Assembly (NCBI RefSeq): GCF_017875325.1
Contig: NZ_JAGGMN010000001.1
Span: forward strand, 1,632,140 to 1,696,139
Length of the DNA: 64,000 nucleotides
Origin: Methanofollis sp. W23
Lineage (GTDB): Archaea; Halobacteriota; Methanomicrobia; Methanomicrobiales; Methanofollaceae
Direction of reading: 5' to 3'
Shown here: one piece after another, positions 1,813 through 62,541 of the stretch
How positions within the stretch are numbered: position 1 is the stretch's first letter
Layout of the letters: each line of letters begins with the position of its first letter
Position numbers and translations under genes: made by a program
Notes under the pieces: model-generated
Told to the model about the DNA's origin: nothing
The model's database searches: none
The model's input: only the letters and a program-made list of their open reading frames with translations

Positions 1813-2046
1813 GGTCCTGTAGAAATTCTCTTGATGGTGCTCTTCGACGGGGGCATGCCGCCCCCCAAACCCCCGCATGAGGAGAGGCAGAGGACGGCAA
1901 TTCCCTCCACACGGCTGTTGATTCTGCCTTCCCGGTCCTATCTTCATCCTGGGGGGTGCGGGCGGCACTCGTCCCCGGCCAAAGAGATAGATGGGAAGAC
2001 GGGTGAATCGCGCTCGCAACGAGAATTAGTGAGTATCTACAGGGCC
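1813..2046 (+). mobile_element. MITE-like element, subtype A
   Basis: Starts GGTCCTGTAGAAA and ends with ATCTACAGGGCC, inverted versions of one another. The inside has the subtype-A order: a CTCTTGATG segment, a GCCGCCCCCC hairpin, a CTGCCTTCCCGG segment and a GAATCGCGCTCGCA segment near the right end. The left flank is a C(T)6C run just after the zinc-ribbon gene. I see no clear target duplication. Confidence 0.7.
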
Positions 2047-2055
2047 CAAATTCCA

Positions 2056-2371
2056 GGTTTGTAAAAACCCTCTGGATGGGTCTCTCTGGCGGGGGGTTGG
2101 TTGCGCCCCCCGAACCCCCGCCGATGAAGATTGGCGAGGGATTCCATCCCGTCTTCATGGTTTTTTTCTCTGCCTTCCCAGCTCTATCGCTATCCCAGGG
2201 GTCCGGGGGCAGAGCCCCCGGAGTGGGGATGGAGGGAGGTGAAAAATGTATGGATACGCGATGAAAGAACAGGAATCTCTTCATTATCATCCGATCGCGA
2301 TCATCGGCGAGGAGGAGGGCGCAAAAGTTCTGGGATGACCTTGAAGAATGAGGGAGGGATTCTACAGAGCC
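2056..2371 (+). mobile_element. MITE-like element, divergent subtype A
   Basis: Follows the previous copy after 9 bp. It has the CTCTGGATGG/CTCTCTGGCGG left segment, the perfect hairpin CCGGGGGCAGAGCCCCCGG near 2208-2226 and the right end ATTCTACAGAGCC. Flanks AAATTCCA (2048-2055) and TCATTCCA (2373-2380) match at 6 of 8 positions, so an old target duplication is possible. The right third (TTCTGGGATGACC near 2325) belongs to another subtype. Confidence 0.65.
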
Positions 2372-7545: not shown

Positions 7546-7973
7546 GTCTCTGTAGAATCGGGCATGAACGTGGGGTTCAAGCATACGTGATGAAAATTTC
7601 TCATCACATGCTCTCTCTTTTCAAGAGAGGAGAATCGGGGGGGATCGTGTTCCATTCGCCGCCCCCACCTCTCTTTGTCGTGGGGGGTCCGGGGGGGTGA
7701 AACCCCCCGGCGCAAGATGGCAGGGAAATCTCGACGATGGGAGCGGCCGATCCATCAGAAGAATTTTTTTATCCTCTGCGTATCGGCTTCAACGTGATAT
7801 TACGAGTGCAAACTCTCATGCAAACTTGAAGAGAGGATCGTCTGGATCATTTTCATGGTAAACCCTCACCGATTCCTGGTGTGAGTGTGACTCACCCCCC
7901 GTCCCCTATCTTCTCGCCGGGGGCGGCACGCCCCCCTGCCAGAGAGTTCCATCCTGAAGGTTTCTACAAAGCC
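7546..7973 (+). mobile_element. Composite MITE-like element (B + D + A modules)
   Basis: Begins GTCTCTGTAGAATC followed by the subtype-B hairpin (GCATGAA...TTCAAGCAT), then a GGGGGGTGAAACCCCCC hairpin. Next comes module D, which ends GGATCATTTTCATGGTAAA at about 7845-7863. It closes with a shortened subtype-A half ending TTTCTACAAAGCC. The left flank CCAACAAC (7538-7545) is repeated as CAAACAAC on the right (7974-7981) and exactly at 8218-8225, after the next element. Confidence 0.75.
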
Positions 7974-7981
7974 CAAACAAC

Positions 7982-8217
7982 AGGCTCTGTAGAAACCCTT
8001 ACCTATTCTCAGTGCGAGCGCGATTCAGGCGCCTTCCCCCATCATCTCTCCGGGGGCGCTGCCCCCGGACCCCCAGGATTGAAGATAGGGCCGGGAAGGC
8101 ACATTCATTGAACATGAAGCGAGTATTGCCATCCCCCGCCTCTCGAATCGCGCGGGGGGACCAGGGGGCGGCCAAGCCCCCCGCAGAGATCGTCATCAAG
8201 AGCATTTCTACAAAGCC
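7982..8217 (-). mobile_element. MITE-like element, subtype A, reversed
   Basis: Reads GGCTCTGTAGAAACCC at the left and ATTTCTACAAAGCC at the right. The GAGCGCGATTCA segment near the left end and CCCCCGCAGAGAT near the right show that it lies opposite to the copy at 16553. It shares its 8-bp flank with the upstream composite: CAAACAAC on the left, CCAACAAC on the right. Confidence 0.75.
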
Positions 8218-16483: not shown

Positions 16484-16552
16484 CATAGGAGAAAGGTGGA
16501 CCTGATCAGTCCATGTCTCCCTCTCTAAAGATGGAGAAAGATTTTAGAGAAC

Positions 16553-16784
16553 GGCTCTGTAGAAATTCTCTTGATGAATCTCTCTGGCAGGAGGCGTGCC
16601 GCCCCCCGAACCCCCCACCACACGATAGGGCGAGGGCGGCAGCACTCTCTTTATGGTCATCGATTCTGCCTTCCCGACCCTATCGTGGTCTCGGGGGTCC
16701 GGGGGCAGAGCCCCCGGCCAAAGAGGTAAGAAGGTGGGTGACACACGTCTCACCCACACAAGAGGCGAGGGTTTCTACAAAGCC
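16553..16784 (+). mobile_element. MITE-like element, subtype A, with perfect target duplication
   Basis: 232 bp, from GGCTCTGTAGAAA to TTTCTACAAAGCC (12 of 13 positions inverted-identical). It contains the 8-bp-stem hairpin CCGGGGGCAGAGCCCCCGG at 16699-16717. The flanks are a perfect 8-bp direct repeat, TAGAGAAC, at 16545-16552 and 16785-16792. This is the cleanest reference copy; it has no coding capacity. Confidence 0.85.
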
Positions 16785-16885
16785 TAGAGAACCAGATCAC
16801 TGACGATTGACAGAGGACCAGTGAGAGTGATCTCCCCCTCTTCACCCTTCATCATGGAAGGTTGGAGGGGGATGGCCGGGAATTG

Positions 16886-17122
16886 GGCTCTGTAGAAATC
16901 CTCTTGATGAATCTCTCTGGCAGGAGGCGTGCCGCCCTCCGAACCCCCCCGCGCGAGCGATTGGTGGGAGACAGCACTCCACTCTTCATCGTCATTGATG
17001 GTGCCTTCCTGTCCCTACCTCCCATCCCAGAGTCCGGGCGGCACTCGCCCCAGGTGTTGAGCATGAGGGAAGGCGGTTGAATCGCGTTCGCATCCGGAAA
17101 AAGTTAGGGATTCAACAGAAAC
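16886..17122 (+). mobile_element. MITE-like element, subtype A, older copy
   Basis: Starts GGCTCTGTAGAAAT and runs parallel to the previous copy (CTCTTGATGAATCTCTCTGG, GGCGTGCCGCCCTCC, GAATCGCGTTCGCA). The right end is decayed to GGATTCAACAGAAA, and no target duplication is clear. Confidence 0.7.
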
Positions 17123-17373: not shown

Positions 17374-18069
17374 GTGCACATCATGGAAGGGTTCCTCCCA
17401 CCGGCCTGGTGCCTCTTCTGGTTCCTGGTCTCTGCCCCGTTTGTCGTCTACGGGATGTATCAACTGAGAATACTGATGAGAGAGAAGAGAGAGGCGCTCC
17501 CCCTCCTCGCCGTCGCAGGTGCCTTCGTCTTCGTCCTCTCCTCACTCAAACTCCCGTCGGTGAGCGGGAGCTGTTCCCACCCGACCGGGACCGGGCTTGG
17601 TGCCATCCTCTTTGGCCCCTTCATCACCGCGATCCTCGGGCTGATCGTCCTCCTGTACCAGGCGATCTTCCTGGCCCACGGCGGCCTCACCACCCTGGGA
17701 GCAAACCTCTTCTCCATGGGGATCGCAGGTCCGCTCCTCGCCTATGCAATCTACCGGGGCGGCCAGAAGGTCGGGCTCAACACCTACCTCACCGTCTTCC
17801 TCGCCGCCGCCCTTGCCGATCTCTTCACCTATGTGGTGACCGCGGCCCAGCTCGCCCTCGCCTTCCCGGCAGAGGCCGGCGGGGTCGTCACCTCGTTCGT
17901 CGCCTTCGCCGCGGTCTACGCCGTCACCCAGGTGCCCCTTGCGATCATCGAGGGTGCGGTCATCGCCCTGACCTTCAAGTACATCATTGATGTCCGCGCC
18001 GAGATCCTGGTCAGACTCGGCGTGATCTCCAACGCAGTGGTCGCACGGCTGCAGGGGGTGCAGGCATGA
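17374..18069 (+). CDS. cbiM: Cobalt/nickel ECF transporter, substrate-binding membrane subunit
   Basis: 231-aa S-component of the CbiMNQO importer. The start GTG 17374 gives Met1-His2 ([10 protein letters not shown]). In NikM/CbiM proteins this N-terminal Met-His pair is part of the metal site, so the GTG is preferred over the in-frame ATG at 17383. [14 protein letters not shown] supplies the other conserved His. About six or seven membrane segments. Overlaps cbiN by 4 nt. Cobalt would feed the B12-dependent enzymes of a methanogen; nickel would serve CODH, hydrogenase and F430. Confidence 0.93.
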
Positions 18070-18356
18070 AGTACGCACTGGAGGTTACCGTCCTTGCAAT
18101 TCTCTTCATCTTCACCGGCGCATTTGTCCTCGTCCAGAACACCGGCGAGCACGAATGGAGCGGGACCGACGACCAGGCCGGCGACGTCATCAACGAGATG
18201 ACCGGCACCGAGTACGAACCCTGGGCCGACCCCCTCTACGAACCCCCGAGCGGCGAGATCGAGTCGCTCTTCTTCTGTCTCCAGTCCGCCATCGGGGCAC
18301 TGGTGATCGGGTTCTTCTTCGGGTATTATTACCGCGGGAGGCGGATTAATACCTGA
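18066..18356 (+). CDS. cbiN: Cobalt ECF transporter auxiliary subunit
   Basis: 96-aa protein with two transmembrane helices (about 5-24 and 73-90) flanking an acidic extracytoplasmic loop, as in all CbiN proteins. It contacts CbiM and is needed for metal loading. ATG lies within the cbiM stop (ATGA overlap), indicating coupled translation. Order M-N-Q-O is the standard one. Confidence 0.9.
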
Positions 18357-18401
18357 AACTTCCCTTTCTCTGTAGATGAGAGAGGAAAGCAGGAGAGGAG
18401 C

Positions 18402-19184
18402 ATGGAGAATATCCTGGACGATTATGCCCACCAGAACGCCCTGCGGGACGTCGACACCAGACTCAAACTTGTCCTCGGCGGAGGAGCGATCGCCGTCGGC
18501 ATTCTCTCGACAGGCCCGGTCGCCCCACTCCTCATCGCCGTCTCCATGGCGGCGATCACCGTCTTTCTTGCCAGGACACCAGGACGGTTCTACGCCGCCC
18601 TCCTCGCCATCCCCCTCTCCTTCGCCGCCCTCTCTGCAGGCGTGATCCTCTTTCTCCAGGGCGGGGGCGCACCCCTCATCACCCTCCCAGTCGGCGGGTT
18701 CACCCTCACCGCCACCACCGGTAGCGCCGACATGGCCGCCCTCGTCCTGGCCCGGACCTTTGCAGGGATGTGCTCCCTCTTCTTCATCGCGCTCACCACC
18801 CCGATGGTCGAGATCTTCGCGGTGATGCGTGGGCTCAGACTCCCGGCAGAGTTCGTCGACCTCGCCATGCTCATCTACCACTTCATCTTCATGCTCATCG
18901 GCGAGGCGGTGGCCACCCACAATGCCCAGGAGATCCGCCAGGGCTACACAGGGTTCAGGAACTCGCTCCGCTCTTTCCCGATGCTTGCTGGGGCACTCTT
19001 TGTGCGGGCCTGGGAGAAAGGAGAGGAACTGATCCTTGCCATGGACGCCAGGTGCTATGACGGCAAATTCCCCCTCGAAGAGGGTGGTGACGGCCCCTCG
19101 CCCCTGAGCACCGCCGCCGTCGCCGCGTACCTCCTCGCCGTCGGCGTGATCGCCCTCCTGACCAGAGGCGTACAGATATTCTGA
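18402..19184 (+). CDS. cbiQ: Cobalt ECF transporter, transmembrane coupling subunit
   Basis: 260-aa T-component with an N-terminal DVDTRLKLVLGG segment, four or five membrane helices and the two coupling motifs typical of the family: the helix with L-R-G-L-R-L-P (about residues 141-150) and A-W-E-K-G-E-E-L near residue 206, followed by MDARCYDG. These carry the charged ends that sit in the ATPase grooves. A GGAGAGGAG ribosome-binding site precedes ATG 18402. Confidence 0.93.
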   Translation: MENILDDYAHQNALRDVDTRLKLVLGGGAIAVGILSTGPVAPLLIAVSMAAITVFLARTPGRFYAALLAIPLSFAALSAGVILFLQGGGAPLITLPVGGFTLTATTGSADMAALVLARTFAGMCSLFFIALTTPMVEIFAVMRGLRLPAEFVDLAMLIYHFIFMLIGEAVATHNAQEIRQGYTGFRNSLRSFPMLAGALFVRAWEKGEELILAMDARCYDGKFPLEEGGDGPSPLSTAAVAAYLLAVGVIALLTRGVQIF

Positions 19185-21921: not shown

Positions 21922-22432
21922 GGCTTTGTAGAATCGAGTATGAACCTGAGTTCACGCATACGAGATGAACATGATCGTGGGTCTCCAGGGTGTGTGGACC
22001 CGTGATCCCCCGTTCGCGCAGGACACACACACACCACGGGGGGACCACCACTCACCTCCCGCCCACCTATCCTCGTCGCGGGGCACGGCGCCCCCGCACC
22101 CCGGGATGGCAATAGGGGCGGGGAGGCAGAACGCCGATCATGCTGAAGGGGTCTCAGTAATCTGAATATCATCTTCAACAAGATATGGATAGTTCTAATT
22201 CTCATAAAAACCCGGAGAGATAATCGTCAGGATCATTTTCATGGTAAATCCTCTTGATGAAACACTCTGGCGGACGGCACCCGCCCGAACCCCCGGGATG
22301 AAGATTGAACTGGGAAGGCATATTCGAAATCCTTGAAGAGGGATTGCCGTCCACGACCTATCGTGGCGCGGGGGGTTCGGGGGGCGGCACGACCCCCGCA
22401 GAGATAATCATTAAGAGCATTTCTATAGAGCC
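21922..22432 (+). mobile_element. Composite MITE-like element (B + D + A), full length
   Basis: 511 bp. Begins GGCTTTGTAGAATC with the subtype-B hairpin (TATGAACCTGAGTTCACGCATA). Module D ends GGATCATTTTCATGGTAAA at about 22225-22243 and runs straight into a subtype-A half (CCTCTTGATGAAACAC) that ends TTTCTATAGAGCC. It is the uninterrupted counterpart of the reversed copy at 55899-56683. No reading frame is credible. Confidence 0.75.
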
Positions 22433-24165: not shown

Positions 24166-24957
24166 CAGGTGAGACGAGAGAGTTGGGCAACGGAGGAGAA
24201 GTCCCGTAGACTTCTCATCTGTTTTTAGTTCGAATGTGACGCAATCGTCCCCCTCCATGCTCGCACCGGGGGAGATCTCGATGATCATAGATATTCTCAA
24301 GTTCCCTCCGGTCGCACAGCGAAGATCAAAGATCTCCTCAAACTTGCTCACGCACGTTTCCACTAGATCCGCGGGACGAAGATTGGACAGGGAAAGCAAA
24401 GAGAAGACCATAAAGACCGTAGGGAATCCCCCGTCAATCTTCGAGCATATCCCAAAACCCTCTGAGGCCTGAATTGAAACACTCCTTTCCAAGAATTTAG
24501 AATGCGTATCTTCCGCCGGGGGGCGGCAGCCCCCCGGTCCCTCCGCAGAAGATAGGGAGGAGGACAGTAATCCTTCCTTCGTGATTATAAAAGACGCCAT
24601 CCTCCACCTATCGCCATCCCGGGGGTCCAAGGGGCAGCGCCCCCGCCCCCAGCACAAGCGTGCGGGAAGGCCATAGGTGCTTCTTTAGGCTACGAGGGGG
24701 CGAGGATCTTTCAACCATCATCCATCGCTATATTCTGTAAAGGTAAGGTCGGAGAGTTTTGGGATGACCTCTTCATTAACGGGGGGTCCGGGGGGTGCGA
24801 GCGCCAGTGAGCTTGAGAAGATCTTTGATCTCCGAGTACGACCGGAAGAAGTCGAGAAAATTTATGATTTTCGAGAGGTAAGCCCTCCGGCGGAGGAGAG
24901 AGGCCAGAATTTCTGGAAGGAAGCGCTTCGGTTCAAAGGGATATTCTAGCCACAGAG
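24166..24957. repeat. Repeat block: inverted pair of subtype C plus an A-like core
   Basis: No gene is credible. Two related segments of about 70 bp lie in opposite orientation at 24279-24349 and 24809-24876 (GAGATCTTTGATCTTCG against GAAGATCTTTGATCTCCG, then GACCGGA in both). Between them lie a subtype-C motif (GAGCATATCCCAAAACC at 24443; TTTTGGGATGACCTCTTCA at 24757) and an A-like core with GGGGGGCGGCAGCCCCCC near 24518 and GGGGGTCCAAGGGGCAGCG near 24620. Confidence 0.55.
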
Positions 24958-30896: not shown

Positions 30897-31096
30897 GTCA
30901 GGGGGCGTGCCGCCCCCCGAGCCCCCTCGCAACAGACCAGTCGAGGACGGCATAATCCCCTTCAAGAACATCAGATGTGCCTCCTGGCCCCTTCTTCATC
31001 CAGGGGATGCGGGCGGCACTCGCCCGGGGACGAAAGATGCAGGAAGGCAATAGAGCTACAGTCACACCAAGAATAAACGAGAGATACTACAGCGCC
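30897..31096 (+). repeat. MITE-like element, subtype A, left end missing
   Basis: Begins at the hairpin GGGGGCGTGCCGCCCCC and continues through ATGCGGGCGGCACTCGCCC to the right end GATACTACAGCGCC. The left terminal repeat is absent, so this is a truncated copy placed 13 bp after the protease stop. Confidence 0.6.
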
Positions 31097-32717: not shown

Positions 32718-33416
32718 TGCTCTGTAAAACCCCCCACCTATTGTGGGAGATGTGTGTCGCCTGCCTTCCCCCCTCTTCGGCCAGGAAGGCACACTCAACC
32801 GCCATGAGGAGGGTAATGCCATTCACCGCCTCTCGAATCGCGCGCGGGGGCCCGGGGGGCGGCACGCCCCCCGCCAAAGATAATATCCCAAAAATATCCA
32901 GGGCTCGATCGATCCCTTCTGCCATTTCTCTGCCTTCCCCGCGTCAATCGCAATCCCGGGGATTTCAGGGGCGGGACACCTGACTTGACTGATGATGGTG
33001 GGCAGACCGATCCAACGTGCCGCCCACATCAAGAATAAATGAGCGTTTCCTTGCTCTCTCGCGCCAGGAGGTGACTGTCCAGGGCCCTACACGGCCGCTC
33101 TTCTCAAGCCTCTGAAAAACATTCTCCAGACAGCTCTCCGTGACAGGGAACGTGCCGGCCCAGATGAGAAAAGAAGAGAAGGCGCCCCTATCATGCTCAC
33201 ATCTGGCGATGGCGAGAACCTGAACAATCACAGGCCTGCGAGGAAGAGGGGCATCATCACCCAGATGGAGACCGGCCTGACACCCCAATCGGGGGCACAT
33301 GGGCCGATAAAATAGAGAAAAAATCATTAAAAATGTAGAATCGTACGAATAATATATGTTATTGCCTACGAAACTATAAATATCATGGATTGGATCCAAT
33401 ACCGTAGAGCACACAG
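32718..33416. repeat. Degenerate repeats and promoter region before the TPR gene
   Basis: No gene seen. 32718-32990 holds a damaged element (CTGCTCTGTAAAACCC at the left, GGGGGGCGGCACGCCCCCCG near 32855, CGCGCGGGGGCCCGG). 33000-33300 has no feature I can name. The last 110 bp is A/T-rich with TATAAATA at 33375-33382, a TATA box about 40 nt before the TPR gene start. Confidence 0.5.
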
Positions 33417-34133: not shown

Positions 34134-34219
34134 CCTCCCCCAGGGGCGGGGGGCGGCGACGGAGAAATGTTCATCACATATGCGTGAGCCAGAAGGTCAT
34201 GCCTGATTCTACAAAGCCG
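34134..34219 (-). repeat. Terminal fragment of a subtype-B element
   Basis: Read on the minus strand it begins GGCTTTGTAGAATCAGGCATGACC, then the second arm CTCACGCATATGTGATGAACA and a GGGGGCGG-rich core: the left end of subtype B. The rest of the element is missing. Confidence 0.6.
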
Positions 34220-49218: not shown

Positions 49219-49490
49219 CGACTGTGTAGAATCAGGCATGAACCCCTGGCTCACGCATATGGCATAAAATGATCATAGGTCTCCTGGGACACCATGCAGG
49301 AAGATCATCATATGGCCGCCCCCGCCTCCCCTCGTCGTGGGGGCTTCCCCAGGCGTGGTGGCGGGAGAAGGCAGGCAGGCAGGCAGGCAGGCACAGGTGC
49401 GCAACAAAAAGGGGGAAGACGAGAGTTCTGAGATGACCTCATCACCTATGCCTGAACCCGTCCAGGGTTCATGACGAATTCTACAGAGCC
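49219..49490. mobile_element. MITE-like element, subtype B, both termini intact
   Basis: The left end CTGTGTAGAATCAGGCATGAACC and the right end, read backwards as CTCTGTAGAATTCGTCATGAACC, are long inverted repeats of about 45 bp, each with its own small hairpin. The core has a C-rich segment with CCTCGTCGTGGGGG, then six tandem GGCA units (49370-49393). It ends TTCTACAGAGCC. No protein is encoded. Confidence 0.75.
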
Positions 49491-53858: not shown

Positions 53859-54089
53859 GGCCCTGTAGAAATCCTCTGGATGGATCTCTCTGCCGGGAGG
53901 TTTCACCCCCCGGACCCCCCGCCACACGAAAAGGTCGAGGACGGCAGCACTCTCTTTATGGTCATCGATTCTGCCTGCCCGGCCCTATCTTCATCCCGGG
54001 GGCCCGGGGGCAGAGCCCCCGGCGAGAAGATGGGGGAAGACGGTTGAATCGCGCTCGCACCCAGAAAAAGTAAGGGTTTCTACAGAGCC
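53859..54089 (+). mobile_element. MITE-like element, subtype A, with perfect target duplication
   Basis: 231 bp, GGCCCTGTAGAAA to TTTCTACAGAGCC, with the hairpin GGGGGCAGAGCCCCCGG near 54007-54023 and GAATCGCGCTCGCA near the right end. Flanked by the perfect 8-bp repeat CTGTTTTC at 53851-53858 and 54090-54097. It is about the same length as the copy at 16553. Confidence 0.85.
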
Positions 54090-54097
54090 CTGTTTTC

Positions 54098-54699
54098 GAG
54101 TTCTCATCGAAGTTATCCCAAAACTTCTCTGGCCTTGATCGGTGAGTGAAAGACGTTTCTGAAGCAGGGTGTCGTTCAAGAGATTGTTGCCGCCCCACCC
54201 CTACCTTCGTCGTGGAGGGTCCGGAGGGTTTCCCCTCAGCAGGAGAGAGCGAGGAAACATTCTTTATTCTTTCTGTGGGCGGCATGGCTGATCGATCTGC
54301 CTTTCTCTGTCATTCGCACAGGGGCCACCCCCCCCCTGGACCTCTGGGATTGAAGTGGAGGAGGCAGAGGAATGGCTGGAAAATGTCTCGATCCTGATGA
54401 TTGATCGAGCCTGGGATACTTTTGGGATATGCTCATCCATAACTCCAGAATTGAACGTCTGGATCATTTTCATGGTAAATCCTTGAGATGATGCTCTGTG
54501 CAGGGAGGTGCCGCCTCCACAACCCGCTGTCACACGATAAAAGGTTGAGGACTGCAAGCGCCCTCGTCATGGTCGTCTATTCTGCTTTCCCAATTCTATC
54601 GTCATCCTGGGGTCCGGGAGCAGAGCCCCAGGCAAGAAGTTGAAGGAAGGCGGGAGAGTCGCGCTCACACCAGGAATTAGTGAGGGTCTATACTGAACC
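54098..54699. repeat. Degenerate repeats: subtype C, module D and a subtype-A copy
   Basis: No gene seen. 54108-54135 carries the subtype-C motif (GTTATCCCAAAACTTCTCTGG) and 54415-54440 its reverse (TTTTGGGATATGCTC). GGATCATTTTCATGGTAAA at 54461-54479 is the end of module D and leads into a damaged subtype-A half running to about 54699 (GGGTCTATACTGAACC). Confidence 0.55.
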
Positions 54700-55898: not shown

Positions 55899-56683
55899 GG
55901 CGGTATAGACACCCCTCACCTCTTCCTGGTGCACGCGTGCCTCGGCCGCCGTGCTCAATGCTCGCGCCGGGGGCGTTGCCCCCGAACCCCCGGGAAGAGG
56001 ATAGGAGCAGTAAGGCAGAACTAATGGCCATGATGAGGGGGTTGCCGTCTCCCACCTATCTTCGCAGGAGGGATTCTGAGGGAGGCATGCACCCTGTCGA
56101 AGACAACCATCAAGAGGATTTACCATGAAAATGATCCTGAAAATAATCTCTCCGGGTTTTTATGAGAATTTGAACCATCCTGATCTCGTTGAAGAGGATA
56201 TACAGATGAGAGGGCTCTATAGAAACCCTCTTGATGGTCCTCTTCGACGGGGGGCTGGCCGCCCCCCGAACCCCCCGCGTCATGATAGGTCGTGGACTGC
56301 AATCCCCTCTTCATGGTCATTTTTTATGCCTTCCCGGCTCCATCGTTGTCCCGGGGGTCCGGGGGCAGAGCCCCCGGCGTGATTGTGTGGGAAGGCGATT
56401 GAGTTACCCTTGCACCGAGAGAAAGTGAGGGCTTCTACAAAGCCGATGAGAGAAAAACCTTCAGCATGATCGGCGTTCTGCATTCCCACCTCACCGCGCC
56501 GGGGGTGCACGCACCCCGTGACCCCCCGAGAGAGGAGAGGTGGAAGCGGCAGGTGAGTGGTGGTCCCTCCGTGGTATCCCGCGCGAAAGGGGGAGCACGG
56601 ATCCACACACCCTGGAGATCTGTGATGAAAAATTTCCATCGCGTATGCCTGAACCAGGGGTTCATGCCCGATTCTACAGGACC
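55899..56683 (-). mobile_element. Composite MITE-like element, reversed, interrupted by another copy
   Basis: Read on the minus strand: B left end (GGTCCTGTAGAATCGGGCATGAACC, in parts), B core with GGTGTGTGGATCC, module D ending GGATCATTTTCATGGTAAA (56121-56139), then a subtype-A half ending at 55899. It matches the order of the intact copy at 21922. The stretch 56213-56452 is a later insertion. Outer flanks CAGATTAT and CAGACAAT agree at 6 of 8. Confidence 0.75.
56213..56444 (+). mobile_element. MITE-like element, subtype A, inserted inside another element
   Basis: 232 bp, GGCTCTATAGAAACCC to GCTTCTACAAAGCC, hairpin CCGGGGGCAGAGCCCCCGG near 56357. Flanked by the perfect 8-bp direct repeat GATGAGAG at 56205-56212 and 56445-56452. 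Removing it with one repeat copy restores the surrounding composite element. Confidence 0.87.
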
Positions 56684-60162: not shown

Positions 60163-60440
60163 CGAATTACCATGAAAATGATCCAGAAGATCCTCTCTTC
60201 AGGTTTGCATGAGAGTGTGAACTCGCCATATCCCGTTGAAGCCGATACGCAGAGGATAGAAAATCCCTCTGATGGATCTGCCGCTCCCAATCCTCGAGAT
60301 TTCCCTGCTGTCTCGCGCCGGGGGAAAACCCCCGGACCCCCCACGACGAAGAGAGCCGAGGGGCGGCACGATGCTCGACTTCGATTCGCTCCTCGTTTGT
60401 AAGGATGGGGGTCAAGAACTCATGCCGAATTCTACAGAGC
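60163..60440 (-). mobile_element. MITE-like element, subtypes B + D, reversed
   Basis: Opens with the reversed module D (TTACCATGAAAATGATCC), followed by GCATGAGAGTGTGAAC, GTTGAAGCCGATACGCAG, a hairpin GGGGGAAAACCCCC and CCCCACGACGAAGAGAG, and ends CATGCCGAATTCTACAGAGC. Colinear with the copy at 7546-7863 in the opposite orientation. Confidence 0.7.
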
Positions 60441-60509
60441 AGAATTATATGAACCCATGATCGGCCTTTCTTCGGTCGATCTCTCCGATTTCAGGACCAT
60501 ACAACCCCT

Positions 60510-62321: not shown

Positions 62322-62541
62322 GGCCGTGTAAAAATTCTCACCTCTTCCAGGCACAGGCGTGAACCAACCGCCTTCCCACATCGAAGGCGCCGGGGGGAGA
62401 CCCCCCGGGCCCCTGCATGAAGAGAGGGCGTGGACGGCACAGTTTTCTTCAGATTCATCGGTCCTGCCGTCCTGGTCGGAGGGGGATGTAGGCGGGCGAG
62501 TCTCGCCCTTCCCTGGAATGAGCAAGGGGATCTACAGGGCT
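62322..62541 (-). mobile_element. MITE-like element, subtype A, reversed
   Basis: Left end GGCCGTGTAAAAATTCTCACC, then CGCCGGGGGGAGACCCCCCGG hairpin in two parts near 62388-62408 and the right end GGATCTACAGGGC. Ends are clearly inverted but imperfect; no target duplication is seen. Confidence 0.6.

Follow-up and report, generated by a model that had tools for sequence, protein, structure and literature searches.

A highly abundant family of MITEs in a Methanofollis genome and its likely IS5-family partner in a sister species

Archaeal MITEs usually resemble their parent insertion sequence (IS) in fewer than about 20 terminal nucleotides and nowhere else, and 19 archaeal MITE-like families have been listed without an IS partner having been found (PMC3852290). 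The IS5-associated MITEs of Methanosarcina acetivorans are 140-252 bp long and occur in 12-24 copies, newly tabulated archaeal MITEs number 2-34 copies, and the duplications listed for IS5-associated MITEs measure 0 or 3 bp (PMC3852290). Here we describe MITEs from the genome of Methanofollis sp. W23 (G000) that are like these IS-associated elements in size, in their short inverted ends and in resembling a parent at the ends only, but that differ from them in copy number, which we estimate at several hundred (at least 150 candidates, all passing), and in a duplication of 8 bp. A literature search found no earlier description of this MITE family, and Rfam holds no family at its place; it is a known kind of element and a new family.

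We analysed a 64-kb stretch of this genome (the window), to which coordinates refer unless a genome, contig or locus is named. The family unit is about 232 bp long and GC-rich inside, has no gene of its own and could not accommodate a transposase as long as the parent's (301 aa). The full-length, 232-bp copy at 16553-16784 (plus strand) lies between exact 8-bp direct repeats, TAGAGAAC, at 16545-16552 and 16785-16792, and the plus-strand copies at 53859-54089 (231 bp) and 56213-56444 (232 bp) have exact duplications of their own, CTGTTTTC and GATGAGAG, all three being mutually different. A first-pass annotation of the window had given the coordinates, length and duplication of the first copy, and perfect, different duplications for the other two, exactly as we find them; it had also called the terminal inverted repeats perfect, and these prove near-perfect, pairing over 12 of 13 bp in copy 16553 (GGCTCTGTAGAAA and GGCTTTGTAGAAA), 12 of 13 in copy 53859 and 10 of 13 in copy 56213. 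Terminal inverted repeats are also present in the consensus, whose ends are GGCTCTGTAGAAATCCT and GGCTCTGTAGAAACCCT. The interior is partly self-complementary (fold z -2.9) and the element as a whole partly palindromic, so the family profile was built from oriented copies, as orientations are otherwise mixed.

The window contains 31 family matches at E<1e-3, of which the "more than a dozen relatives" noticed at first pass was an understatement. Just downstream of the copy at 16553-16784 stands a second one (16886-17119, plus strand) with an intact left end, a degraded right end and no duplication; the cobalt-transport genes CbiM and CbiQ (17374-19181) lie directly downstream of the copies at 16553-17119. 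A copy of nearly full model span at 1813-2046 (plus) has a decayed duplication (4 of 8 positions), and truncated copies lie at 2058-2243 (plus; model positions 4-187) and 22282-22432 (minus; model positions 1-153). Copies at 54477-54698 (plus) and 55904-56121 (minus) correspond to model positions 11-231 and 11-227, respectively. Profile searches also returned diverged copies at 24502-24709 and 30897-31095 (both plus) and at 32719-32891 (minus), and a strongly diverged copy of full span lies at 62323-62540 (minus; 60 bits).

The full-length copy at 7983-8217 (minus) is the right member of a tandem pair, whose left member is a 428-bp element (7546-7973) with a left end of another subtype (GTCTCTGTAGAATCGGGCATGA) and a right end of the present kind. 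From left to right the pair reads CCAACAAC, 7546-7973, CAAACAAC(A), 7983-8217, CCAACAAC. The view that copy 7983-8217 lacks a duplication was rejected, because the tandem insertion re-used one 8-bp target; on the simplest account, one element inserted into the target that the other had already duplicated. The second end type, GGCTCTGTAGAATC(G/A)GGCATGA..., stands at 7546-7567, 21922-21943, 34197-34218 and 49220-49241, with further examples at 49469-49490, 56662-56683 and 60420-60441, and probably marks another MITE subtype, with the outer 12 bp in common. In G005, another species of the genus, similar ends of this second type bound a 1,488-bp locus (L078:1398-2885) that has DDE-transposase-type frames as well as an exact GATAATAT duplication. 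A different dispersed repeat of about 85 bp flanks one MITE copy (approximately L020:1818-1901) and has dozens of matches in G000, G005 and G001, a sister species and the closest relative sampled.

Abundance was gauged in a 464-kb sample consisting of the window and 20 evenly spaced 20-kb stretches of the same genome. A profile search of this sample, following a check proposed at first pass, gave 181 matches at E<1e-3 (members or fragments), against no family matches in a Markov-shuffled control, and family DNA makes up 5.2-5.5% of the sample, depending on the E-value limit. Extrapolated to 2.9 Mb, the genome would hold about 1,100 matches of any length, of which about 450-480 would cover 150 or more model positions and about 100-125 would be close to full length; the short-match counts are upper estimates, as the GC-rich interior may draw in pieces of related subtypes. 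A separate model search scored at least 150 candidates, all with E<1e-26. The MITE is unusually abundant in this genome, at an estimated hundreds of copies. Greedy open reading frames (ORFs) cover 45% of family bases compared with 81% of the sample, placing the MITEs mostly outside long ORFs.

By DNA search, 11 of 12 genomes in the genus have the family (G000 included; in one of the 11 the match is single and weak), and the 29 genomes from elsewhere in the order have none; among the genomes searched, it was found only in this genus. Plasmids, phages and viral contigs gave no match to the MITE. Densities, counting copies and fragments per 100 kb, are 59 in G001, 36 in G000, 15 in G004 and 11 in G009, and then 3.7 in G008, 2.5 in G005, 1.2 in G003 and 0 in G002 and G006, the sister-genome figures coming from 80 kb sampled each and the low values being rough.

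A search for loci with a DDE_Tnp_1 transposase yielded L060, a 1,008-bp IS in G005 with ends GGCTCTGTAGAATTCCT and GGCCCTGTAGAAACCCT, an exact 8-bp duplication (GAACAATC) and a single 301-aa open frame. Its product matches NF033579 (transpos_IS5_2, IS5 family; 2.4e-70, 237 bits against a cut-off of 140) and PF01609 (77 bits, cut-off 23) and is, as judged from its sequence, an IS5-family DDE transposase. A decayed relative, L063, lies in G009 with the duplication CGAAAATC, and G004 holds fragments 91-96% alike. The MITE consensus agrees with the L060 ends at 16 of 17 bp on each side and shares their left-right asymmetry; L063 has one end that matches the MITE at 17 of 17. By the criterion set at first pass, the parent would be recognised as a full-length IS that shares the MITE's ends and duplicates 8 bp of its target, and L060 is such an element. 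The likeness between the MITE and these IS5-family ISs (NF033579, including L060 and L063) extends to the terminal 17 bp, the 8-bp duplication and A/T-rich targets, whereas the ISs are about 1,008 bp long with a transposase gene and the MITE is a gene-free unit of about 232 bp with a GC-rich inside. Comparison with L060 gave no convincing internal homology, the resemblance being confined to the outer 17 bp or so on either side. IS5-type ISs over the whole order share this terminal motif and also have perfect 8-bp duplications. Within the IS5 family, the ISH1-type subgroup is archaeal and makes 8-bp duplications, and it has these features in common with the partner IS, together with a length of about 1 kb.

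With its matching ends and 8-bp duplication, L060 identifies the repeat as the MITE of an IS5-type IS, and we regard it as very likely that the roughly 232-bp elements are MITEs that an IS5-family transposase mobilised in trans; the action in trans of the partner transposase is one that we infer from sequence. The first-pass annotation, which had no name for the element and saw no transposase, had read it as the footprint of a transposed non-autonomous, MITE-like element, a reading supported by length-specific 8-bp duplications, by two empty sites (both described below) and by the partner IS. Nor is any IS5-type transposase detected in the whole of G000, by protein search or with the IS5_2 model, an unusual absence, as some copies are 96-99% alike and would have moved fairly recently; the partner resides in a sister species. 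G001, which with G000 forms the pair of densest genomes, likewise has no match to the IS5_2 model and gave one weak fragment by protein search, G001 being 81% complete. The only DDE_Tnp_1 match in G000, L065 (G000:C1:20983-21840 and surroundings), is a decayed IS1634-family transposase (NF033559) with an internal stop; this locus was rejected as an element bounded by MITE ends, as its outer 8-mers do not match. Since G000 and G001 have no recognisable intact transposase of this kind, the last mobilisation in this lineage rests on a lost or unseen gene, and the helper IS was probably lost from this lineage after the burst. Because similar ends occur across the IS5-type group and the homology spans about 17 bp, any of several related ISs may have been the driver.

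That the MITE is still mobile in G000 in the absence of an IS5-type transposase, driven by an unrelated enzyme of the host or of another mobile element, seems unlikely; if true, a truly orphan MITE would make up about 5% of an archaeal genome. Less probable again is movement by another transposase family with 8-bp duplications (IS1595, IS6 or ISL3) and GG..CTGT-like ends: ends starting GGCTCTGT together with 8-bp duplications are known in several IS families, but no IS1595-type transposase was detected in G000 and none of the IS6 or ISL3 type in the 12 genomes of the genus, and it is an IS5-type element that matches the MITE ends at 16-17 of 17 bp.

The target sites bear the signature of a fixed duplication length. 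In 39 full-length copies, the two flanks are exactly equal at length 8 in 21 cases, where mismatched pairs predict 0.18; every other length from 4 to 12 gives 0 or 1 exact matches in the same copies. Among 85 distinct full-length copies from G000, the duplication is intact (8/8) in 31, against a chance expectation of 0.13, and 7/8 in 14 (0.79 expected), giving 45 with at least 7/8 (0.9 expected); the 8-bp identity to which the first-pass annotation had pointed thus survives when all copies are scored (21/39; 31/85). Exact duplications flank 16 of 30 young copies (nearest-neighbour identity of at least 0.90) and 10 of 44 old ones (below 0.85), the excess in copies with a close relative being expected if duplications decay with age. 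Within the duplicated sites, C or G is favoured at the outer positions and A/T inside.

Mobility was addressed by searching the joined flanks of five clean copies across the genus. For two of the five, G001 has the orthologous sequence without interruption: copy G000:C1:1458575-1458803 has an empty site there, with 91% identity across the junction, as has copy 909091-909321 of G000, with 83% identity. Base-by-base alignment at both sites places a single target copy and no element in G001. The first of these insertions lies inside a 366-aa ORF for an APH-type (kinase-like) phosphotransferase, which is intact in G001 (L218:1137-2237) and split by the MITE in G000 (L011:972-2138). Two clean empty sites in a sister species show that the element has been mobile and that, contrary to what the first-pass annotation had named as grounds against its reading, copies are not confined to orthologous sites. 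One further copy stands in both G000 and G001, flanked in each by a CTTTTTTC duplication, and together with the empty sites this indicates insertions of a range of ages. Some transposition events appear to have been fairly recent, to judge from pairs of copies with identities of 99.1%, 97.8% and 95.7% in which either member has a perfect duplication of its own, although gene conversion could inflate the similarity of such pairs.

These same observations bear on two readings that do without transposition. A REP/BIME-like or structural repeat, that is, a hairpin with a host role such as transcription ending that mimics a transposon, would fit the GC-rich, partly self-complementary interior and the position mostly outside long ORFs; such depletion from genes is, however, also expected from selection on insertions, and this reading is opposed by the duplications specific to 8 bp, by the empty sites, by the copy that interrupts a gene and by an autonomous IS sharing the element's ends. 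The duplications and empty sites refute such an origin, to which we give very little credence, and the hairpin may still have a secondary host role. Weakest of all, and in our view barely credible and refuted as the main route, is spread through exchange between repeats, by homologous recombination or gene conversion, which would suit the mosaic-looking copies in the alignment (L010, L011 and L033, with halves of different subfamilies seemingly exchanged) but can neither make a new site with an 8-bp duplication nor fill an empty site exactly between terminal GG and CC. Some exchange between MITE copies is nonetheless likely from these mosaics, and may shuffle interiors.

Under the favoured reading, of MITEs mobilised in trans, an IS5-type DDE transposase would bind the terminal GGCTCTGTAGAAANCCT repeats, mobilise the element and insert it at A/T-rich sites tending to C/G borders, cutting the two strands with an 8-bp stagger, and gap filling by host repair would then leave the 8-bp duplication. 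Because the GC-rich, partly self-folding interior is unrelated to the IS, only the ends appear to have been taken from the parent. The lineage of this species and G001 would have seen most of the spread, with most copies presumably decaying now, a few others young, and no IS5-type transposase detectable in the genome any more.

Collectively, these results give a parent to a large family of repeats that otherwise occupies unannotated gaps in genomes of this methanogen genus, and they describe an archaeal MITE amplified about tenfold beyond the 2-34 copies previously tabulated (PMC3852290). Gene-finders and comparative studies of the genus should mask it. Across the genus, abundance per 100 kb reaches about 59, fragments included, in one species, while in others no copy was detected, and the helper IS is present in some genomes and absent in others; this range of copy numbers and patchy helper make the genus a ready natural series for studying the factors that permit or halt MITE amplification.
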